Position numbers and translations under genes: made by a program. Below the pieces are notes generated by a model that saw only the letters and a list, made by a program, of their open reading frames with translations, was not told the DNA's origin and did no database searches. Shown here piece by piece: positions 5,099-57,368 of a stretch of 64,000 nucleotides of DNA; the stretch's first letter is position 1; the number at the start of each line of letters is the position of its first letter. Source of the stretch: Bacteroidota bacterium (GTDB taxonomy: Bacteria > Bacteroidota > Bacteroidia > M30B66); assembly GCA_027490225.1 (NCBI GenBank), contig JAIXYK010000008.1:1-64000 (forward strand), read 5' to 3'.

Positions 5099-7279
5099 AT
5101 GAAAACCATTTTTGCGTTTATTTCATTTGTTCTGTTTATTCAAAGTTCATATTCTCAGGGAACTAAAGAACTAACCTTGAAAGAGATTTGGGCCAGCCCA
5201 ACATTCAGACCTGAATATATTTTTGGAATTGCATCCATGAAAGATGGTATTCATTACAGCACATTGAGCACTAATGAAGGTGGTTTGAAAATCGAGAAAC
5301 ATGGATACGCAACATCTCAAAAAGTTGCCGATATATTAGTTGCAAGTGAGGTTAAATTACCAAATGGAGCTACTTTAGAATTTGATGATTATGTTTTCAA
5401 TGAAGATGAAACTATGATTTTAGTTGCCACAGAATCAGAACCAATTTACAGGTATTCAACAAGGAGCAGATATGTAGTTATAGATTTAAAATCAAAAAAA
5501 GCAACTTATTTAAGTGCAGGAAAACAACAGTATGCTGGATTTTCTCCAAATGGAAAACATGTTGCATTCGTGAAAGAGAATAATTTGTTTATCAAAGATT
5601 TAAGCAGCGAAAAGGAAACACAAGTTACAACTGATGGACTAAGTAATAACATTATAAACGGAGCCAGCGATTGGGTTTACGAAGAAGAATTTGCTTTGAA
5701 AGAAGCATTCTTTTGGTCGCCAGATAACTCAAAAGTCGCTTTTTTACGTTTTGATGAAAGCAAAGTAAAAGAATTCAGCATGAACACTTATGGAGAATTG
5801 TATCCTGGAGTTTATAAGTTTAAATATCCCAAAGCAGGAGAAGATAATTCTTCAGTCTCTTTAAAAGTGTATGATTTGCCTACTAATAAAACTATTACCA
5901 TGGAAGTAGGAAATGATATGAATCAGTATTTACCACGCGTTAAATGGACATATTCTGGTGCTGAACTTTCTGTAGTAAGATTGAACAGACACCAAAACCA
6001 CTTAGAACTTCTTTTGTGCAATCCGTTAAATGGTGAAGTTAAAACATTATTAGAGGAGAAATGCGAAACTTATATTGATATAAACGATAACCTTACTTTT
6101 TTAAAAGACGGAAAACGTTTCATTTGGTCAAGTGAATTAGGTGGCTTCAATCATTTGTATTTGTATGGAATGGATGGAAAAAAAATTAATGCCATTTCAA
6201 GTGGAAATATGGATGTAACTGAATTTTATGGGGTTGATGAAAAGAAAGGATTGGTTTATTTTCAAAGTGCAGCTCCAACACCGATGGATAGAAGCATTTA
6301 TGTAAGTAATTTGAATGGAAAAAGTCAGAAAGTTTTAATCAAAGGAACAGGACATCATGCTCCCGAATTCAGTAAAACATTCGATTATTTTGTATTAAGT
6401 AAAAGCTCAGCAAATACACCAGTAAGTTTTGAAATGTATGGTGGCGATGGTAAGCTTATAAGAACATTGGAATCTAATGAAAAACTCAAATCAACCTTAA
6501 GCGGATATGCTACAGCACCAAAAGAATTCTTCAATTTTACTACCAGCGCTCAAATCGTATTAAATGGTTGGATGATTAAACCCCCAAATTTTGATGCTAA
6601 AAAGAAGTATCCGGTTTTTATGACTGTTTATGGAGGACCGGGTCATAACACTGTTGAAAATCAATGGGAAGGTGCAAATTATCTTTGGTACCAAATGCTG
6701 GCACAAAAAGGATACATAGTTGTTTCTGTAGATAACAGAGGTACTCAATATAGGGGTGAAGCTTTTAAGAAATCTACTTACAAACAACTTGGTAAATTAG
6801 AAACCGAAGACCAAATTGAAGCAGCAAAATACTTGGCAGGCTTAACTTATGTAGATGGAAGTAGAATTGGCATTCAAGGCTGGAGTTATGGTGGATATAT
6901 GTCGAGTTTATGCATAACGAAAGGTGCTGATTTATTTAAAATGGCAATTGCAGTTGCGCCAGTTACAAATTGGAGATACTATGACAATATTTATACAGAA
7001 CGCTTTATGCAAACTCCTAAAGAAAACGCATCAGGTTATGACGAAAATTCTCCTATAAATCATGTTGCAAGATTAAAAGGGAAATATTTGCTGATTCATG
7101 GAACTGCTGATGATAACGTTCATTTTCAAAATTCAGCAGAGATGGTTACTGCATTAGTTAAAGCAAATAAGCAATTCGATGTTTTTTATTATCCAGATAA
7201 AAATCATGGAATATATGGAGGGAATACGAGATTGCATTTATATACTTTAATGACTGATTATATTCTTAAAAATCTGTAA
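5099..7279 (+). CDS. Secreted dipeptidyl peptidase IV (S9B serine peptidase)
   Basis: A 726-residue exopeptidase that removes X-Pro or X-Ala dipeptides from peptide N-termini. A signal peptide (MKTIFAFISFVLFIQSSYSQ) sends it to the periplasm or surface. Residues about 100-450 form the DPPIV N-terminal beta-propeller, including DWVYEEEF, which carries the paired glutamates that hold the substrate amino terminus. The alpha/beta hydrolase domain holds the triad: Ser596 in GWSYGGYMS, Asp671 or 672 in GTADDNVHF and His703 in DKNHGIYGG. Length and motif order are normal. A box TACTTTAG at 5074-5081 is a plausible -7 element. Functionally it would supply dipeptides to the POT symporters at 15.4-20.2 kb. 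Confidence 0.95.
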   Translation: MKTIFAFISFVLFIQSSYSQGTKELTLKEIWASPTFRPEYIFGIASMKDGIHYSTLSTNEGGLKIEKHGYATSQKVADILVASEVKLPNGATLEFDDYVFNEDETMILVATESEPIYRYSTRSRYVVIDLKSKKATYLSAGKQQYAGFSPNGKHVAFVKENNLFIKDLSSEKETQVTTDGLSNNIINGASDWVYEEEFALKEAFFWSPDNSKVAFLRFDESKVKEFSMNTYGELYPGVYKFKYPKAGEDNSSVSLKVYDLPTNKTITMEVGNDMNQYLPRVKWTYSGAELSVVRLNRHQNHLELLLCNPLNGEVKTLLEEKCETYIDINDNLTFLKDGKRFIWSSELGGFNHLYLYGMDGKKINAISSGNMDVTEFYGVDEKKGLVYFQSAAPTPMDRSIYVSNLNGKSQKVLIKGTGHHAPEFSKTFDYFVLSKSSANTPVSFEMYGGDGKLIRTLESNEKLKSTLSGYATAPKEFFNFTTSAQIVLNGWMIKPPNFDAKKKYPVFMTVYGGPGHNTVENQWEGANYLWYQMLAQKGYIVVSVDNRGTQYRGEAFKKSTYKQLGKLETEDQIEAAKYLAGLTYVDGSRIGIQGWSYGGYMSSLCITKGADLFKMAIAVAPVTNWRYYDNIYTERFMQTPKENASGYDENSPINHVARLKGKYLLIHGTADDNVHFQNSAEMVTALVKANKQFDVFYYPDKNHGIYGGNTRLHLYTLMTDYILKNL

Positions 7280-7751: not shown

Positions 7752-10700
7752 ATGAAGAATTTAAGAATCATTTTTACTGTTGTTGCTTTCTTAGTACTTT
7801 CAGCAAGCACTTTTGCTCAAACTTATGTTTTAGGGCAAGGTGGAGCAACAATTAATAACGCATGTTCTGGAAATATTTTAGACCCAGGAGGAGCAGGAGA
7901 TTATACGAATAGCAATAACGTAACACAAACTTTCTGTTCGGGCACAGCAGATTGTATACAGTTAACAATAAATAGCTTTACAACTGAGGCTAGTTTTGAC
8001 TTTTTACGTGTATACGATGGAATAAACAATACCGCAGAGCCTCTATTAGAATATGCGGGTAACACTCCCCCAAGCGCTACAATAACTAGTACAACAGCAT
8101 CTGGAGGTTGTATTACCTTAAATTTCACTTCTGATGGTTCTGTAACAAATCCAGGTTTTGACTTAGGTATTCAATGTGTGCCATGTCCTATTGCACCAAC
8201 AGTTTTTGTTTTAGGCCAAGGCGCCCCTACAATTAATACTTGTAACGCAATAGTTAGAGATCCAGGTGGAGGAGCAAATTATCCAGATAATCAAAATGTT
8301 ACTCAAACTTTTTGTTCAGACAATGGGCAATGTGTTCAGTTTGCATTTGAGCAATTTCAAACGGAGACGGGTGCTGATATAGTTCGATTTTTTGATGGCC
8401 CTTCAGTTGCTTCACCTTTAATTGATGAACTATCAGGCTTTTTAGTTCCTGCTCCTATTACAAGTTCTATAGCATCTGGAGGTTGTTTAACAGTTCAGTT
8501 TAATTCTAACGCGTTTAATAATAATTCAGGTTTCAAAGCAAATTTAACTTGTGTTCCTTGCCCGGCTCCAGCTGAACCTTATATTATACTTGGTCAAGGG
8601 GGGGCAACTATTAATACATGCGGAGCAACAATAACTGACCCAGGAGGAGCTCTTGATTATCCCAATTCATCATTAATAACTCAAACCTTTTGTTCGGGTG
8701 ACTTCCAATGTGTTAGATTTACATTTGATGAGTTTGAAACTGAAAGTGGAGTTGATTTGGTTAGGTTTTATGATGGTCCAACCACAGCTTCCCAATTATT
8801 AGCTGAATCTTCAGGATTTGCGGTTCCAAATGCCGTTACAAGTTCAACGGCTTCTGGAGGTTGTTTAACTGTTCAATTTTCTTCCAATGCATTTACCCAA
8901 GGAGCTGGATTTAGGGCTTCAATATCTTGCGTACCATGTCCACCACCACCACCGCCAGCAATTATTCTTGGTCAAGGTGGCGCAACAGTACAAACATGCG
9001 GAGATATTCTTCAAGACCCAGGAGGGTTAGGTAATTATGGAGATGATTTAAATATTACTCAAACTATATGTTCAGGTAATGCGCAGTGTATAAAGTTAAC
9101 ATTTACCGAGTTTCAAACTGAAACAGCATTAGACCGACTAACAATATATGATGGCCCCAATACCTCAGCCGATTTGTTAGGAATATTTTCAGGCTTTAAT
9201 TTACCTGTCCCAATAAGCAGCTCAACAGCATCTGGAGGTTGTATGACATTGGTTTTTACTTCGAATAATTCGTTTAATGATATAGGATTTCAGGCTACTA
9301 TTTCATGTGTTACTTGTGAAGAGCCAATTGAAATACCAACTGGATTATGCGGAGACGCTCAGCCTTTTTGTACTGACGCGCAGGGAGGACTTACTTTTCC
9401 AGCTGCAACTAATACAACTTCAGAGTTCTTTGATCCAGCTGATGGATCTAGTAATATTTGCTGCTTAGGAAGTACACCAAATCCGGCATGGTACTTTTTA
9501 AGAATAGAAGAAGCGGGTCCAATCGATTTGTTAATTACTTCAGGTTTTGATGTTGATTTTGCATGTTGGGGACCATTTACTGAAGCTCAATGGCAAGCAG
9601 GAGTTTGCGCAGAAGCAATGGATCCAAACCAATTGTGTAATGGTGGTTTAATGATTGATTGTAGCTATTCTGGCGCAGCAGTAGAAAATTGTAATATTCC
9701 TAATGGACAGGTTGGTGAATATTACATGTTGTTGTTGACAAATTTCTCAAATCAGGTTACCAATATTAATTTTACTCAGGATGGAGGAACAGGTTCTACA
9801 GATTGTAGTATTTTCTGCCAAGTAGATGCTCCTGCTTTACCAACTGTATGCGACCCTGTAACAAATACTTATACATTATCGGGTACTATTGAGCTTACTA
9901 ATCCTCCTACAACAGGAACGCTTACTTTAGCAAATTCATCGGGTGGCTTTACTATATTTAATGCACCATTTGCTAATTCAATTCCATACAATTATATAAA
10001 TTTATCTTCAAATGGAAATGCAGAGAATTTAAGTGTAGTGTTTTCTGATGATAATACATGTGCCGCAATTAGTAATTACATTGCACCGGTTTCTTGTTCA
10101 ACATGCCCTGTTACAGCAAGTGTTTCTGGCCCAGCTTGTATTGGTCAAAATGTAACTTTAACTGCTACAAATGTGGCTGGTGCTACATATTCTTGGTCGG
10201 GCCCTAATGGTTATACATCTAATGTTCAAAATCCGACACTTACTAATGTTGATTTAACAATGGCTGGAGTTTATACTGTAACAGCAAGTAATGCCGTTAA
10301 CGGATGTTCGAGTTTGGCATCTGCGAACGTATTTGTATTTGATACTCCTTTAACCCCTGTTGTTTCAAATAGTGGTCCTGTTTGTGAGGGAACTCCGTTG
10401 AATTTAACATGTCCTGCAGTGCCAGGTGCAATTTATGGATGGACAGGGCCTAATGGTTTTGTATCATCTCTTCAAAACCCAACAATTGCCGCGGCTTCTG
10501 CTGCCGCTGGTGGTGACTATCTCTGCACAGTAACAGTAAATTCTTGTCCAAGTTTAGAAGGAACGACTACCGCTATTGTTAATCCTTATCCAGCAAGTCC
10601 TGTTCCTGTAAGTAATGCACCTTTTTGTGCTGGCGGTGATTTAACAATTTCTATTGCTAATGTGCCAACAGCAACTTATGAATGGACTGGTCCTTTGGCC

Positions 10701-12377
10701 TATACATCAACAAATGAAGACATTACAATAACAGCAGCAACAGCAGCTAATTCTGGGAATTATTCTGTGCGTTTACTCTTAAACGGTTGCTACAGTTTGC
10801 CTGCTAATATTGCAGTAGTAATTCATCCGATACCAGCAGCACCGGTTATTACTTCTAATACACCTGTTTGCGAAAATGCATTGTTACAATTAACTGGACC
10901 TTCACCAACTCCAATTATAGGAACAACTTACAACTGGACAGGTATTAACTCATTTACTTCAACACTTCAATCCCCAAGTATTGCCTCAGCACAACTTGTA
11001 AACGATGGAGATTATTCTTTAACAGTAACTGAGAATAATTGCACATCAGCGCCTACTACTCTAACAATGGTAGTTATTCCATTGCCAACACCCAATGCTG
11101 GATTAGATGTTACAACCTGCTCAAATCAACCTATAACTATTGGTTCTGCAGCAATACCTGGTCTGTCTTATTCCTGGACTCCCGCTGATGTAGGAATTGA
11201 AACAGCTTTATTAAATACTTCTAATCCAATATCTCTTATATCTAACTTATCTGACATTCCTAGAATTGATACTTACATATTAACAGTTTCAGACCAGGGG
11301 TGTAGTAGAAAAGATACAGTTAATGTCACTACAAATCCACAACCAATTGCTTCTTTTATAGTTCCTGATCCACAATGTTTTAAAGGAAATTCTTTTGATT
11401 TTGAAGCAGATGGAACATACGGTGCCAATGCAACTTTTGAATGGAGATTTGGTGCTTGGGCTAGTCCAGATACTTCAATTTTGGAGAATCAGTCGGGTGT
11501 TAGTTTTAATTCTACAGGATTGCAAATGGTTTCGCTCACAATTACTGAAAACGGGTGTGAAAGCAATACTTACATAGCTCCTGTAACTGTCTATAAAATG
11601 CCGGTAGCTAACTTTACTGCTGACTATTTTGTTGGTTGTGATCCTAAAGTTATCAATTTTACAAACCTTACGGAATCTGATGATCCTATTAAATCTCGTG
11701 TTTGGGACTTTGGTAATGAAAAAACTTCTAATCTCCAGAATCCTGGTGTTTTATATAATGATCCAGGTGTATTTGATGTTTCTTTAACAGTAACTACAGA
11801 AAGAGGTTGTCAAGATGTTTATTTGATACCAGAGATGATTTTAATTCATCCAACCCCAACTGCAGATTTTCAGATAGATCCTCCTTTAGTAAATATCGTT
11901 AAACCGATTACAAACTTTAATGACCTTTCAACAGGAGGAGATGAAGTGAGTTATATCATTATTGGTTATGATACAATATTCCAAACCAATCCAAGAGTAA
12001 CGTTACCTGACAGTGGAGTTTATGATGTACGTCAAATAGTTACCACTGCATTAGGTTGTCGCGATTCTGTAGTGAAACAAGTTGTAGTAGAGCTAGGATA
12101 TAAACTATATTTACCTACAGCCTTTACTCCTAATAATGATGGATATAATGACAGATTTCAAGTGTATGGAGAAGACGTTTCAGAAATCACCATTTTAATT
12201 TATAACAGATGGGGACAATTGATGTACACATCTTATGATATGGATAATGGTTGGGATGGAAAAGTAAGGTTAAAAGAAGAACCTGCTCCAGGTGGAGTTT
12301 ATGTTTATAAAATTAAAGCCATTCATAAAGATGGTTTGAATACTAATTATGAAGGCATTGTAACCTTGTTAAGATAG
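7752..12377 (+). CDS. Giant secreted CUB/Ig/PKD protein with T9SS-type C-terminus
   Basis: A 1,541-residue cell-surface or secreted protein. ATG 7752 begins a typical signal peptide (MKNLRIIFTVVAFLVLSAST); ATG 7746 would add two residues. Four tandem CUB-like modules of about 127 residues start near nucleotides 7820, 8200, 8578 and 8960. Each has LGQG-x-x-T, a DPGG motif, TFCS, a Y/F-DGP segment and an ASGGC motif, with paired cysteines. A cysteine-rich segment follows, then several Ig-like modules with the pattern Y-x-W-(S/T)-G-P-N-G-(F/Y), PKD domains with FGN, and the gliding-motility C-terminal module (YLPTAFTPNNDGYNDRF ... YNRWGQLMYTS). The C-terminal signal implies export by the type IX system. 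Adhesion or polymer binding is likely but not shown. A strong terminator follows. Confidence 0.9.
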   Translation: MKNLRIIFTVVAFLVLSASTFAQTYVLGQGGATINNACSGNILDPGGAGDYTNSNNVTQTFCSGTADCIQLTINSFTTEASFDFLRVYDGINNTAEPLLEYAGNTPPSATITSTTASGGCITLNFTSDGSVTNPGFDLGIQCVPCPIAPTVFVLGQGAPTINTCNAIVRDPGGGANYPDNQNVTQTFCSDNGQCVQFAFEQFQTETGADIVRFFDGPSVASPLIDELSGFLVPAPITSSIASGGCLTVQFNSNAFNNNSGFKANLTCVPCPAPAEPYIILGQGGATINTCGATITDPGGALDYPNSSLITQTFCSGDFQCVRFTFDEFETESGVDLVRFYDGPTTASQLLAESSGFAVPNAVTSSTASGGCLTVQFSSNAFTQGAGFRASISCVPCPPPPPPAIILGQGGATVQTCGDILQDPGGLGNYGDDLNITQTICSGNAQCIKLTFTEFQTETALDRLTIYDGPNTSADLLGIFSGFNLPVPISSSTASGGCMTLVFTSNNSFNDIGFQATISCVTCEEPIEIPTGLCGDAQPFCTDAQGGLTFPAATNTTSEFFDPADGSSNICCLGSTPNPAWYFLRIEEAGPIDLLITSGFDVDFACWGPFTEAQWQAGVCAEAMDPNQLCNGGLMIDCSYSGAAVENCNIPNGQVGEYYMLLLTNFSNQVTNINFTQDGGTGSTDCSIFCQVDAPALPTVCDPVTNTYTLSGTIELTNPPTTGTLTLANSSGGFTIFNAPFANSIPYNYINLSSNGNAENLSVVFSDDNTCAAISNYIAPVSCSTCPVTASVSGPACIGQNVTLTATNVAGATYSWSGPNGYTSNVQNPTLTNVDLTMAGVYTVTASNAVNGCSSLASANVFVFDTPLTPVVSNSGPVCEGTPLNLTCPAVPGAIYGWTGPNGFVSSLQNPTIAAASAAAGGDYLCTVTVNSCPSLEGTTTAIVNPYPASPVPVSNAPFCAGGDLTISIANVPTATYEWTGPLAYTSTNEDITITAATAANSGNYSVRLLLNGCYSLPANIAVVIHPIPAAPVITSNTPVCENALLQLTGPSPTPIIGTTYNWTGINSFTSTLQSPSIASAQLVNDGDYSLTVTENNCTSAPTTLTMVVIPLPTPNAGLDVTTCSNQPITIGSAAIPGLSYSWTPADVGIETALLNTSNPISLISNLSDIPRIDTYILTVSDQGCSRKDTVNVTTNPQPIASFIVPDPQCFKGNSFDFEADGTYGANATFEWRFGAWASPDTSILENQSGVSFNSTGLQMVSLTITENGCESNTYIAPVTVYKMPVANFTADYFVGCDPKVINFTNLTESDDPIKSRVWDFGNEKTSNLQNPGVLYNDPGVFDVSLTVTTERGCQDVYLIPEMILIHPTPTADFQIDPPLVNIVKPITNFNDLSTGGDEVSYIIIGYDTIFQTNPRVTLPDSGVYDVRQIVTTALGCRDSVVKQVVVELGYKLYLPTAFTPNNDGYNDRFQVYGEDVSEITILIYNRWGQLMYTSYDMDNGWDGKVRLKEEPAPGGVYVYKIKAIHKDGLNTNYEGIVTLLR

Positions 12378-12396
12378 TAAACATTAAAAGAAGAAT

Positions 12397-12431
12397 AAAG
12401 CCCTGTAAACTTCATTGATTTACAGGGCTTT
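12397..12431. terminator. Bidirectional terminator
   Basis: A perfect 13-bp stem, AAAGCCCTGTAAA at 12397-12409 and TTTACAGGGCTTT at 12419-12431, with a 9-nt loop and T-rich flanks on both sides. It separates the converging CUB protein and gpmI genes. Confidence 0.85.
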
Positions 12432-12433
12432 AT

Positions 12434-13939
12434 TTATATCAGAATATTCCCATTCATTATTGTAGGAACCTTAATTCCCATGAGCGTGAGAATAGTAGGG
12501 GCTAAGTCAGCCAGTTTTCCTTCTTTAATTTTATTGTAAGTATCATCAATTAAAATACAAGGGACAGGATTAGTAGTATGTGCAGTATTAGGAGTGCCAT
12601 CTTCATTAATTGCAAAATCGGCATTTCCATGATCTGCAATAATAATGGCAGAGTAATTCTTCGTTTTAAGTGCATTAAGTACACTTCCTAAGCAAGAATC
12701 TACTGTTTCTACTGCTTTAACTATTGCAGGAAAAACGCCTGTATGGCCAACCATATCAGCATTTGCGAAATTCAAACAAATAAAATCAGGTGTATTTTCT
12801 TTTATATCATTTATTACAGCATCTTTAATTCCTATTGCACTCATTTCAGGTTGTAAGTCATAAGTTGCAACTTTAGGCGAAGAAATCATGATGCGTCTTT
12901 CTCCTTCAAATGGTTGTTCATTTCCTCCCGAAAAGAAAAAAGTAACATGTGGATACTTTTCAGTTTCGGCAATTCTGAGTTGGGTTTTACCCGCTTTCGA
13001 TACAATTTCTCCTAATGTATCTGTAAGGTCATCTTTATGAAAAATTACATTAATGTTATGATAACTTTCATCATAAGTAGTCATAGTAACATAACGAAGA
13101 GGAATTGTATGCATTCCTTGTTCTTGCATATCTACTTGTGTTAAGACTTCTGTAATTTCTCTGCATCGGTCTGTTCTGTAATTGAAGCTTATAACAGCAT
13201 CTCCTTCTTTTATTTTCCCCTTTTCTTCTAAAGATATAGGCTGAATAAATTCATCTGTTTCTCCAATTTCATATCTATCTTGAATTGTAGAAATAATGTT
13301 GTTAGACTTTTCACCGTTTCCATATACCAATAAGTTATAAGCTACTTTTACTCTCTCCCAGCGTTTATCACGGTCCATGGCATAATATCTTCCAACAACA
13401 CTAGCTAGTTTACCTTTTGTCTTTTTTAAATGCTCCTGAAGCTGTTTAATAAAACCTAATCCACTCTTAGGGTCAGTATCTCTTCCGTCAGTGAAAGCAT
13501 GTACATAAAATTCGTTAATTCCATTTTCATTTGCCAATTCAATCAATCGGAACAGGTGTTTCTCAGAAGAATGAATGCAACCATCAGAAAGTAAGCCCAT
13601 TAAGTGGAGCGCCTTTCCGTTCTTTTTGCAGTATTCAAAAGTTTCAAGTAAGGTTGAATTTGAATCTAAAGTATGTTCTGAAATGGCAAGGTTTATTTTA
13701 ACGAGTTCCTGAAAAATTACTCTTCCTGCACCAATGTTTAGGTGGCCAACCTCTGAATTTCCCATTTGACCTTCAGGTAAACCGACTTCTAAACCAGAGG
13801 TTTTTAATGTGGAATATGGCTTACTCCTGTAAAGGTTATCCATTACAGGAGTATTTGCTGCAGCTATAGCATCTGAAGCTGTTCCATTTCCAATTCCCCA
13901 ACCGTCTAGAATTAGCAGGGCTACTTTTTTAGTTGACAT
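12434..13939 (-). CDS. gpmI: 2,3-bisphosphoglycerate-independent phosphoglycerate mutase
   Basis: A 501-residue metalloenzyme that interconverts 3- and 2-phosphoglycerate in glycolysis and gluconeogenesis using two Mn ions. The N-terminal LLILDGWGIG supplies a metal-binding Asp (residue 12). The phosphoserine nucleophile is Ser62 in GQMGNSEVGHLNIGAGR. HAFTDGRDTDP, YYAMDRD and the C-terminal ADHGN with TAHT complete the alkaline-phosphatase-fold site. Length is standard. It is the last gene of a six-gene leftward operon, and its start overlaps the upstream histidine kinase gene by 11 bases. Confidence 0.96.
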   Translation of the reverse strand: MSTKKVALLILDGWGIGNGTASDAIAAANTPVMDNLYRSKPYSTLKTSGLEVGLPEGQMGNSEVGHLNIGAGRVIFQELVKINLAISEHTLDSNSTLLETFEYCKKNGKALHLMGLLSDGCIHSSEKHLFRLIELANENGINEFYVHAFTDGRDTDPKSGLGFIKQLQEHLKKTKGKLASVVGRYYAMDRDKRWERVKVAYNLLVYGNGEKSNNIISTIQDRYEIGETDEFIQPISLEEKGKIKEGDAVISFNYRTDRCREITEVLTQVDMQEQGMHTIPLRYVTMTTYDESYHNINVIFHKDDLTDTLGEIVSKAGKTQLRIAETEKYPHVTFFFSGGNEQPFEGERRIMISSPKVATYDLQPEMSAIGIKDAVINDIKENTPDFICLNFANADMVGHTGVFPAIVKAVETVDSCLGSVLNALKTKNYSAIIIADHGNADFAINEDGTPNTAHTTNPVPCILIDDTYNKIKEGKLADLAPTILTLMGIKVPTIMNGNILI

Positions 13940-54502: not shown

Positions 54503-55186
54503 ATGAGTACTGAAAAAACAAAAATTTTATTGGTCGACGATGAACCAGATATCCTTGAATTTATCAGTTACAACCTGCTAAAAGAAGGATTTGAGGTTTT
54601 TACGTGTAACAATGGTAAAGAAGCCATAAAAATTGCGCAGCAAGAGCGTCCAACATTAATTATATTGGATGTAATGATGCCCGACTTAGATGGCATCGAA
54701 ACTTGCCATGTTATAAGAGAAACTCCTGAATTAAAAGACGTGTTAATTGCATTTCTTACTGCCCGTAATGAAGATTACAGTCAAATTGCAGGTTTTGATG
54801 CAGGTGCCGACGATTACATCAACAAACCAATAAAGCCAAGGGTTTTGGTAAGTCGAGTAAAGGCCTTGTTAAGAAGAAAAGGAGCAAATGTTCCTGAAAA
54901 TGAAATCATGGAAGTGAGCGGTTTTACTATTGACCGCGAAAAATACCTTATCATTAAAGATGGCGTAAATATTAATCTTCCAAAAAAGGAATTCGAATTA
55001 ATTGCGCTCATTGCATCTAAACCAGGCAAAGTATTCACCAGAGAAGATATCTTAAAAACTATCTGGGGCGAAGATGTAGTAGTTGGCGACAGAACCATTG
55101 ATGTTCATATCAGAAAGTTGAGAGAAAAGATAGGAGATGCTTATATTCGCACAATTAAAGGAGTAGGGTACAAGTTTGAGTTCTAA
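54503..55186 (+). CDS. OmpR/PhoB-family response regulator
   Basis: A 227-residue DNA-binding regulator. The receiver domain has the acidic pair Asp12-Asp13 in LLVDDEPDI, the phosphorylated Asp56 in LIILDVMMPD, and the conserved lysine in INKPIKP. A winged-helix trans_reg_C domain follows, with PKKEFELIALIASKPGKVFT and DVHIRKLREKIG. The kinase gene follows with an 11-base overlap, so the two form a pair. It resembles PhoB in layout; no phosphate gene is nearby, so the signal is not assigned. Confidence 0.93.
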   Translation: MSTEKTKILLVDDEPDILEFISYNLLKEGFEVFTCNNGKEAIKIAQQERPTLIILDVMMPDLDGIETCHVIRETPELKDVLIAFLTARNEDYSQIAGFDAGADDYINKPIKPRVLVSRVKALLRRKGANVPENEIMEVSGFTIDREKYLIIKDGVNINLPKKEFELIALIASKPGKVFTREDILKTIWGEDVVVGDRTIDVHIRKLREKIGDAYIRTIKGVGYKFEF

Positions 55187-56255
55187 AGTTCCATTCAGTC
55201 AAAGTTTAAATACTTCCACACCACGCAGTTTAGCAATGTTTCTATCTGTATGGGTGTCGGTGAGTGTTGGCGTAATTGTATCTCTTGCCGAATTTACTTT
55301 CCATAAGAATTTCAGCATTTGGGTTCCATTGGTGGTTATTACCGTTACGTTTTTACTCAGCTTTTTTCTTTTTCAATTTGCTGTAGAGCGCTTCATTTAT
55401 AGAAAAATCAAACTAATCTATAAAACCATTCACCAGTTAAAATTAAAAAAGGGTCAAAAACCAAAATCTGTCGATATAAATACCGATATTATTGCTGCTG
55501 TAAACAAAGACGTGGAAGCTTGGGCCAAAGACCAAAAGGAAGAAATAGAATACCTTAAAAATCTCGAAAATTACCGACGTGAGTTTTTGGGAAATGTGAG
55601 TCACGAACTTAAGACACCCATTTTTAACATTCAAGGTTACATCATGACCTTATTAGAAGGTGGCCTCGATGACCCTAAAATCAATAAAACTTACCTCGAA
55701 CGTGCCGAAAAAAGTGTTGAGCGCATGGTAAATATTGTAGAAGATTTAGAGATTATTACCCAGTTCGAATCTGGGCAGCTTATTCTTCACAAAGAGAAAT
55801 TCGATATTGTAGAATTGGCGCGCGACACCATGACGAGTATTCAGTATAGCGCAGAAAAGAGCAACGTAAAACTATTATTCAAAGACACTTACGACAAACC
55901 TATTTACGTAAAAGCCGACAAAGAAAGTATCCAAAAGGTAATTTCTAACCTGTTGGTCAATTCCATAAAATATAGCAAAGCAGTAGGAGAAACCAAGATT
56001 TCATTCTACGACATGGACGAAAATATCCTCATAGAAGTTTCCGATAATGGTATTGGCGTTGCCCAAGAACATATACCACGATTATTCGAGCGTTTTTACC
56101 GCGTAGACCGCAGCCGCAGCCGCGAAATTGGAGGCACCGGTTTAGGCCTTTCTATCGTAAAACACATCATTGAAGCCCACAACCAAACCATTAATGTGCG
56201 CAGTACGCTGGGCATAGGAACCACGTTTGGGTTCACACTTTCAAAATCGAAATAA
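55176..56255 (+). CDS. Sensor histidine kinase, partner of the OmpR-type regulator
   Basis: A 359-residue membrane kinase. Two membrane helices (about residues 20-40 and 49-68) are separated by a loop of fewer than ten residues, as in PhoR-type sensors. The HisKA site is His143 in FLGNVSHELKTPIF. N-box NLLVNSIKYS, G1 DNGIGV, F-box FERFYRVDRSRSRE and G2 GGTGLGLSIVKHI are complete. The start is taken as TTG 55176, because the segment STPRSLAMFLSVW looks coding; an ATG at 55236 would remove the first 20 residues. It overlaps the regulator gene by 11 bases. Nothing else follows in the operon. Confidence 0.9.
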   Translation: MSSKVPFSQSLNTSTPRSLAMFLSVWVSVSVGVIVSLAEFTFHKNFSIWVPLVVITVTFLLSFFLFQFAVERFIYRKIKLIYKTIHQLKLKKGQKPKSVDINTDIIAAVNKDVEAWAKDQKEEIEYLKNLENYRREFLGNVSHELKTPIFNIQGYIMTLLEGGLDDPKINKTYLERAEKSVERMVNIVEDLEIITQFESGQLILHKEKFDIVELARDTMTSIQYSAEKSNVKLLFKDTYDKPIYVKADKESIQKVISNLLVNSIKYSKAVGETKISFYDMDENILIEVSDNGIGVAQEHIPRLFERFYRVDRSRSREIGGTGLGLSIVKHIIEAHNQTINVRSTLGIGTTFGFTLSKSK

Positions 56256-56297
56256 ATAAAGTTAGGGCGGCTTTTCCCGCTATAGCCTGTGCACGGC

Positions 56298-56326
56298 ACT
56301 TGGCTCTATCGGGGCCGCGCGGTATT
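56298..56326 (-). repeat. Dispersed GC-rich repeat, copy 2
   Basis: On the minus strand AATACCGCGC (56326-56317) and ATAGAGCCAAGT (56309-56298) match the copy at 44020-44046 with one change in each part. The GC-rich context extends to about 56266. Confidence 0.5.
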
Positions 56327-56354
56327 GCTAAAATCATTTGTTTTAAAGTCAAAC

Positions 56355-56455
56355 ATTTTGTGGCAATTTATTTTAACCGAAAATATTTTGCCACAAGTTT
56401 GTGGCAAATTTTCCTGTGGCAAAAAAAAATGCCACAAAAAAAATTGCCACAAAAT
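56355..56455. repeat. Six-armed palindromic block A (GTGGCAA/TTGCCAC)
   Basis: Six copies of one 7-base arm occur: GTGGCAA at 56360, 56401 and 56416 and its complement TTGCCAC at 56388 and 56444, with TGCCAC at 56430. They form an outer 15-bp perfect stem (56355-56369 with 56441-56455). Inside it are two hairpins: TTGCCACAA-GT-TTGTGGCAA (56388-56407) and TGTGGCA-A8-TGCCACA (56415-56436). The result is a three-way-junction fold, possible as RNA or as extruded DNA. Confidence 0.9.
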
Positions 56456-56506
56456 TTTAAAAGTGATGCCATTTACAGGATAGCTCCGTTTATTTTTGTG
56501 TCTCAC

Positions 56507-56605
56507 ATTTTGTGTCAAAATATTTTGTGCGAAAAATTTTTGACACAAGTTTGTGTCAATTTTCTTTGTGTCAAAAAAAAATGACACAAACGTTTTTGAC
56601 ACAAA
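56507..56605. repeat. Six-armed palindromic block B (GTGTCAA/TTGACAC)
   Basis: This is a diverged tandem copy of block A, 152 bases downstream. The six arms start at 56512, 56540, 56553, 56568, 56582 and 56596, exactly the same offsets (0, 28, 41, 56, 70, 84) as in block A. All arms read GTGTCAA or TTGACAC instead of GTGGCAA or TTGCCAC. The outer stem is 12 bp perfect (56509-56520 with 56594-56605); the inner hairpins are TTGACACAA-GT-TTGTGTCAA and TGTGTCA-A8-TGACACA. Confidence 0.9.
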
Positions 56606-56681
56606 TTTTACAAGTGTTGGTTTTATTGGTTAGATGAAGTATAGGGCCTTTTTGTTGGTTGGCTAAGCACTTTAAATATTT

Positions 56682-57368
56682 TCAATCCTTATATTTATTG
56701 AAAATACTACTATCAAAAGGCGTCCAAAGGCAAGCTTTTAAATCTGCTGATTTGAGTCCGTTGTTTGCCCAAGTATTGCAAGTGTTAAATAAACTGTAGG
56801 TTCCATTTGCTTCATAAAATGAATCATTGTTATTGTAAGAGAACCCTTCAATTTTTTGGGTTAAACCTGAACTGTTTACCTTAAAACTACCTTTTACAAA
56901 ATTAACAAGCTTAACATAGTTAGATTTACTAATACATATTTTCTTGCATAATTCTGTTTCTTTTAATTCATCATGAAAAGTAACGTGCATTGCAGAAGTG
57001 CTCAAATAGAAGAGGGCATTAAAAGTTGTGCTGAATTTTATATCGTCCCAGGTTTTTGTTTGAAGAAAAAAACCTTTATCTCCCCAGCCAAATGCCGCAT
57101 ATTGGGTTGCGGTTTTACCTAATTTGGTATCTTCAGGTTTAACATATTTGCTCCAGTCCATGTATTGATTTTGAAAGGGAAGCACTAAATCGCAATGCAC
57201 ACCACTCGTTAAAATGTAAATTTCAACGGCGTCTTTATTACATTCTTTAAAATCTGAATTTACTGCAATAGAAGAAATTGAAAATGCAGATACAAAGTAT
57301 AAGATAATAATCAATACAAAATAACCAATTACCTTTAATGGAAGCAGTATGAGTTTTTTAAACTTCAT
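56682..57368 (-). CDS. DUF2459 family membrane-anchored protein
   Basis: A 228-residue protein with one N-terminal membrane helix (about residues 13-35). The remainder has the DUF2459 (TIGR02117) landmarks: EIYILTSGVHCDLVLPF, AAFGWGDKGFFLQTKTWDD, SAMHVTFH, and the terminal N-T-C-N-T-W-A-N-N-G-L-K-S-A-D-L-K-A with LWTPFD. The family is of unknown function, and the conserved histidine and cysteine suggest an enzyme. It stands alone in convergent orientation to the histidine kinase gene, with the palindromic blocks between them. Confidence 0.85.
   Translation of the reverse strand: MKFKKLILLPLKVIGYFVLIIILYFVSAFSISSIAVNSDFKECNKDAVEIYILTSGVHCDLVLPFQNQYMDWSKYVKPEDTKLGKTATQYAAFGWGDKGFFLQTKTWDDIKFSTTFNALFYLSTSAMHVTFHDELKETELCKKICISKSNYVKLVNFVKGSFKVNSSGLTQKIEGFSYNNNDSFYEANGTYSLFNTCNTWANNGLKSADLKACLWTPFDSSIFNKYKD

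Follow-up and report, generated by a model that had tools for sequence, protein, structure and literature searches.

Twin arrays of inverted seven-base arms in a Bacteroidota genome and their probable reading by an XRE-type DNA-binding protein

The DNA analysed here (the window) is a stretch of 64,000 nucleotides from a Bacteroidota bacterium, in which two tandem blocks of short inverted arms, A and B, lie between two convergent genes, as had been seen in the initial annotation; these are a histidine kinase gene whose end is at 56255 and, on the other side, a DUF2459 gene with its end at 56682. The features are listed below, F and R being the two orientations of an arm and the numbers between them distances in bp.

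55176–56255, plus strand: histidine kinase gene (HisKA/HATPase_c), left flank, outside the module described below, convergent with the right-hand gene
56337–56457, no strand: block A of the putative orphan array, layout F-x-R F-F-R-R
56359 F, 56389 R, 56400 F, 56415 F, 56430 R, 56445 R: arms of block A, TGTGGCA/TGCCACA
56358–56396, no strand: first unit of block A, a putative F30R half-site pair
56374–56382: degenerate site in the middle 15-bp slot of the first unit of block A
56399–56453, no strand: second unit of block A, F15F15R15R, which can be read as two F30R pairs, one interleaved with the other
56489–56609, no strand: block B of the putative orphan array, same layout as block A
56511 F, 56541 R, 56552 F, 56567 F, 56582 R, 56597 R: arms of block B, TGTGTCA/TGACACA
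56510–56548, no strand: first unit of block B, F30R
56551–56605, no strand: second unit of block B, F15F15R15R
56682–57368, minus strand: DUF2459 gene, right flank, outside the module

A gapless alignment of the two blocks covers 121 nt with 76% identity, their spacing being 152 bp; each carries six 7-bp arms at offsets identical in both, and 20,000 shuffles gave at most two arm sites against the six observed, so that the tandem design, arm number, offsets and period first described are real. The change of a single base in all six arms at once, reported at the same time, was likewise found: it is G in every arm of block A and T in every arm of block B, and at the remaining 36 arm positions (the arms minus this base) the blocks differ at 0 of 36, compared with 23 of 79 positions in the spacers (Fisher p=8e-5). 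The spelling given to the arms was correct for most of them, the fifth being ATGCCAC/ATGACAC rather than TTGCCAC/TTGACAC. The middle slot of the first unit is better kept in block B (TTGTGCGAA, 56525–56533) and in a further array of the same genome, on contig C55 (TTATAGCAA), than in block A. When the 672 tiles of the window were ranked by inverted-repeat array score, the array came out at the top. Fold prediction gives two side-by-side hairpins, the second with nested arms (z −7.3/−8.1 for A and −4.8/−5.5 for B), in place of the outer stem closing two hairpins that had been proposed. The sole other strong inverted repeat of the window is an ordinary GC-rich intrinsic terminator at 12385–12432 (AAAGCCCTGTAAA...TTTACAGGGCTTT) with convergent genes on both sides. 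The sequence from the kinase gene to block A (56256–56335) is GC-rich amid A/T-rich surroundings and present as a single copy in the genome.

Within its own genome the array has exactly one other place, at 11317–11430 of contig C55, where it runs in the opposite orientation and shares 80% identity with block A. Other members of the family (G003, G008 and G001) have arrays built to the same design. A degenerate array pattern searched over 395 genomes of the class matched seven, including members of distant families (G134, G191, G248), and its reversed control matched none in the same 395 genomes. A pattern match in G165 looks like chance, and BLAST matches in G014 and G056 (L023, L025) were discarded as chance since they are A/T-rich or coding. 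The arm letter differs among loci (TGTGGCA, TGTGTCA, TGTGACA) and the grid is constant, F15F15R15R with R11F between units; other genomes share the grid with entirely different arms, so the combination of fixed spacing and concerted arm change noticed in the window is general. Because the spacers are mostly unpaired across the dyad, the invariant of the array is a set of regularly spaced sites, not a duplex. A different dispersed hairpin repeat (GAGACGCA...TGCGTCTC) is found near several modules in the genus of G191 (L088 2850–2938, L090 2038–2129 and the L117 upstream region).

The convergent context of the window array, which is shared by the array of G001, and the A/T tracts adjoining the hairpins would suit a bidirectional intrinsic terminator that had been amplified by chance. 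This explanation is very unlikely: a terminator has no need of six identical arms or of a fixed 15/30/41-bp spacing, the ordinary GC-rich terminator of the window (12385–12432) looks different, and arrays of the same design stand upstream of genes elsewhere, both HTH genes and those next to two arrays of G191 (L144/L149).

Beside several of the arrays lies a small two-gene operon. On C55 and in G134 the array ends a few dozen bases before the start of an XRE-type HTH gene, whose product of 170–190 aa has a coiled-coil tail, and this is followed by a gene for a coiled-coil protein of ~137 aa starting with MxYSL (hereafter MSYSL). The array lies directly upstream of the HTH gene on C55 and in G134, G002, G006, G248 and G001, with some variation: in G002 the HTH and MSYSL genes are divergent and the array lies between them, G006 has both genes and a TGTGGCA array, G248 has the array with the HTH gene alone, and G001 has both genes and an array with a wholly different arm (CGTTGTCA), its 41-bp period kept. 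The half-sites of the C55 array are TGTG[G/T]CA, as in the window. The key step of the argument is provided by G001, where the same architecture is combined with different arms and a different HTH.

A DNA-binding domain of the XRE/HTH_3 fold, as would be found in an XRE autoregulator, is present in the first protein of the operon: the Pfam HTH_3 score is 30.6 for G134, above the cutoff of 23, and 21.2, just below it, for C55, and a profile of the HTH compared with the PDB matched C.BclI, HipB, PezA and C.AhdI. AlphaFold models from single sequences had a mean pLDDT of 74.6 for the HTH protein (the HTH part below 60, the long helix at 63–126 a confident coiled coil) and 65.1 for its partner; a fold search with the HTH model returned generic coiled coils only (best E 0.23) and is not taken as fold evidence. 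MSYSL had no usable match in PHROGs, NCBIfam or PADLOC, nor in Pfam where scanned, matched generic coiled coils only and no known toxin fold among solved structures, and was absent from the plasmid, phage and viral contig collections searched.

Several neighbours and variants of the operon were also recorded. On C55 (L036), where the HTH gene occupies 11471–12031, an AbiL-type pair at 8743–11125, consisting of an AAA ATPase (AbiLi model E 7e-83) and RloB/AbiLii, is located directly upstream of the cognate array and operon, and a third small coiled-coil ORF (122 aa, 12620–12988, no Pfam match) follows MSYSL. The module of G134 adjoins a Type IIG restriction enzyme gene. At L137 (G008:C49) there is an HTH-coiled-coil gene without MSYSL, with its own GTGTAAAC array built of F31R10 three times at a period of 41. 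Apparent HTH-MSYSL fusions at L098, L112, L118 and L120 are overlapping frames instead.

Alignment searches detected MSYSL in 11 of 395 genomes of the class and, within the genus to which G191 belongs, in 18 of 41, with up to 22 copies per genome; all matches in a sample of the phylum fell within the same class, and a two-row alignment searched against genome contigs gave one locus, in D1_MAG_00037. The family is patchy, multicopy and prone to expansion. In G419 the 22 copies include several truncated ones, and many of its congeners have none. The link between gene and array is independently confirmed, because G191 and G248 were first found by their arrays alone and only later shown to carry the gene. 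An HTH gene lies upstream in 41 of 51 distinct MSYSL loci, the other ten being without a recognised HTH. Inverted half-sites directly upstream of the module's own gene are the rule: within the 190 nt upstream of the HTH gene the inverted-repeat array beats composition shuffles in 38 of 40 cases, and array scores of at least 5 were obtained for 35 of 41 HTH upstream regions, compared with 115 of 659 control windows drawn from those loci. No arrays were found at other XRE genes of the same genomes, and the open-access literature searched contained no description of the array or the module.

A grid of ~15/30/41 bp is common to the arrays and the arms are private to each system (TTGTACCA, TTGTCTCC, CCTAACGG, TTGCAGC and others), the number of half-sites per array ranging from 4 to 14. 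When all systems are combined, the distances between sites of like orientation show maxima at 15 and 41 bp; the F-to-R distance falls at 26–34 bp in 57 of 74 cases (mode 29) and the R-to-F distance is broad (9–46), the difference in spread being non-significant in a Levene test, which is attributed to mis-picked arrays. The basic unit may thus be F30R, with F15F15R15R consisting of two interleaved units 1.5 turns apart. The 64-residue helix that follows the HTH in the model, ~95 angstrom in length, would span roughly 28–30 bp, which is suggestive only.

Arms are shared by systems whose predicted recognition helices are the same: SRPYVADIE is found with TTGCAGC (L087, L107, L114), SRHLVTKIE with TTGTCTCC (L084, L101), SRGQVAH with TGTAGCATTC (L094, L097) and LSRxMVSQVE with TTGCTYTC (L100, L102). 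TGTGNCA arms, or the one-base-shifted GTGNCAA, accompany HTHs of the pattern R-[SATQ]-x-x-[SA]-M (C55, G006, G002, G134, G248 and others; Fisher p=8e-4, with automatic arm calling). Across systems, similarity between arms goes with similarity at the four residues of the recognition helix that contact DNA (Mantel r 0.14–0.16, p 0.007–0.018; partial Mantel p 0.017–0.022, given MSYSL and the rest of the HTH), a dependence of half-site on helix that is small to modest in size and was measured on automatically picked arms. Mantel tests gave no correlation of arm similarity with the HTH outside helix 3 or with MSYSL, and a looser one that took in the whole helix (11 residues) gave p values of 0.13 and 0.016 in two runs.

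We therefore consider it likely that the arms are half-sites for an XRE-type reader (434/HipB/C-protein fold) whose coiled-coil tail is long, and that blocks A and B are an orphan, trans-located copy of the operator array that normally stands directly upstream of the reader's operon. All arms would change together because one protein reads all of them. A shared DNA-binding reader, which at cognate loci would be the adjacent XRE protein, can explain the concerted change, for which pairing alone is insufficient: it does not account for a common arm in the three separate hairpins of a block.

The causes suggested in the initial annotation fit less well. One was a structured RNA, such as a 5' leader or a 3' UTR element transcribed across the array, for which the strong folds on both strands and the frequent position of arrays just upstream of the HTH start codon may be cited. 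However, mismatches within arm pairs are strand-symmetric (72 G.T vs 68 A.C), in 33 of 41 cases the gene-sense strand has a poorer predicted fold than its complement (p=8e-5), the opposite of what is expected of an RNA, orphans occur in any orientation and context, and the best Rfam covariance-model score was 28.2 bits against a gathering threshold of 114, with only chance-level microRNA-like matches. An RNA is thus disfavoured and very unlikely.

Another was a DNA hairpin or cruciform, which remains a rival: inverted repeats with A/T-rich loops would extrude, the structure itself would be the signal, either for the HTH/MSYSL proteins or for mobility, and template switching would equalise the arms. 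The predicted folds are indeed very stable and the loops A/T-rich, several cognate arrays are perfect inverted repeats of 17–42 bp including spacers, longer than half-sites require, and two G191 arrays with TTGTGACAA arms keep their pairing despite spacer change. On the other hand, G134, G003, C55 and block B have paired arms but unpaired spacers, the 15-bp grid persists where an inner arm is degenerate, which is unnecessary for a hairpin, and the arms track the recognition helix. We regard the cruciform as unlikely; template switching may nevertheless be a route by which arms are copied. The helix correlation, together with the mismatch symmetry and the strand folding, favours double-stranded DNA read by a protein.

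Blocks A and B appear to be an orphan array, their arms matching that of the genome's one HTH-MSYSL operon, on C55, which makes binding in trans by the product of that operon plausible. Orphans that match a resident HTH are also found in G191, where those with TTGTACCA and TTGTCTCC arms occur only in the genome with the cognate HTH, searches of six or seven congeners having found none; both arrays (L144/L149) are close upstream of another gene. For the TTGTCTCC array (L149 1501–1650, G191:C1:2837216) this is a secreted-protein gene, a possible trans-regulated target. Elsewhere the match was not obtained: G003 has an orphan and no HTH of the family was detected in its assembly, the assembly of G008 has a TGTGGCA orphan, an MSYSL remnant and only an HTH with GTGTAAAC arms, and operon arrays matching the TGTGACA orphans of G001 and G191 were not found. 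Two TTGTGACAA F15F15R15R arrays of G191 (L065 5936–5988 and L066 5838–5890) are perfect hairpins with pairing spacers, 1.3 Mb apart, and a matching HTH operon was not found in that genome.

Orphans could also be decaying remnants of a mobile module, arrays that outlived the HTH-MSYSL genes and have no present function. The patchy and multicopy family, the MSYSL remnant of G008 and an orphan of G134 attached to a 22-codon remnant of the HTH gene are consistent with this; the last of these shows that an array and a gene start can be duplicated as a unit. Against it, no HTH or MSYSL sequence, remnants included, is present near blocks A and B, whose arms are intact (12 of 12) while their spacers differ at 29% of positions, and an orphan common to G003 and G008 has 92.9% identity, compared with 87.6% for the coding DNA beside it, between flanks that cannot be aligned, a pattern suggestive of constraint or recent movement. 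For the window array the remnant explanation is somewhat unlikely. At L064 a 343-bp duplicate (6718–7059 and 12381–12723, 89% identical, 5.7 kb apart) contains an array and the first 22 HTH codons, a direct trace of how an orphan array can originate.

Among known systems, the C proteins of restriction-modification systems (C.BclI, C.AhdI, C.Csp231I) resemble the predicted reader of the module: they are small, of XRE fold, and recognise half-sites paired in inverted orientation just in front of the gene encoding them, the half-site sequence varying between families. In C.Csp231I, C-terminal helices extend the dimer and the sites, CTAAG-N5-CTTAG, are separated by A/T tracts (PMC3115060). Unlike C proteins, the module has 4 to 14 half-sites on a 15/30/41-bp grid, a coiled-coil tail of ~110 aa, a coiled-coil partner in place of restriction-modification enzymes, many paralogues per genome and orphan arrays elsewhere. 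Assignment to the C proteins was rejected, the partner being the MSYSL coiled coil and the Type IIG gene merely a neighbour in G134. Autoregulators of the HipB/PezA/Xre antitoxin type likewise have an XRE HTH encoded first in a two-gene operon and expected autoregulation from upstream inverted repeats; the module differs in its many tandem half-sites, in arms diversified between paralogues and in its coiled-coil partner, and a type II toxin-antitoxin system was rejected on the grounds that MSYSL matches no toxin in Pfam, NCBIfam, PADLOC or PHROGs and only generic coiled coils among structures. REP/BIME palindromes with RAYT transposases share with the module intergenic palindromic units and copies away from the gene, whereas the module has an XRE regulator gene, no Y1 transposase, no GTAG/CGTC tag and one or few copies per genome; the array lies at two genome places, and next to the cognate one is a gene for an HTH regulator instead of a transposase, so this candidate was rejected as well.

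Binding, dimer geometry, autoregulation and any physiological role may be pictured from these sequences as follows. The HTH protein would bind inverted half-site pairs ~30 bp apart (F30R, about three helical turns), two of which would be interleaved on opposite helix faces in F15F15R15R; occupied arrays would autoregulate the operon, orphan arrays either would be occupied in trans, as regulatory or bridging sites at a distance, or would be what is left of lost module copies, and shifts in arm specificity would be matched by changes in the recognition helix. By analogy with C proteins, HipB and other autoregulated XRE repressors, the family would work in the same way, differing from them in site number, partner, diversification within a genome and orphans.

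In conclusion, and more tentatively, these loci may represent an undescribed Bacteroidota module family in which an XRE/coiled-coil reader, a coiled-coil partner and a private, co-diversifying array occur together in up to 22 copies per genome, with orphans serving as trans binding or bridging sites; we put this forward as possible rather than probable. The partner, MSYSL, belongs to no known family. If the proposal is true, the family would amount to a naturally occurring set of orthogonal specificity pairs, and it might also be a system for mobility or for tethering the chromosome. The puzzling concerted change of palindrome arms would be explained by co-evolution of a DNA-binding protein and its array, and the dozens of matched reader/array pairs would be usable for learning the XRE recognition code and as orthogonal parts.
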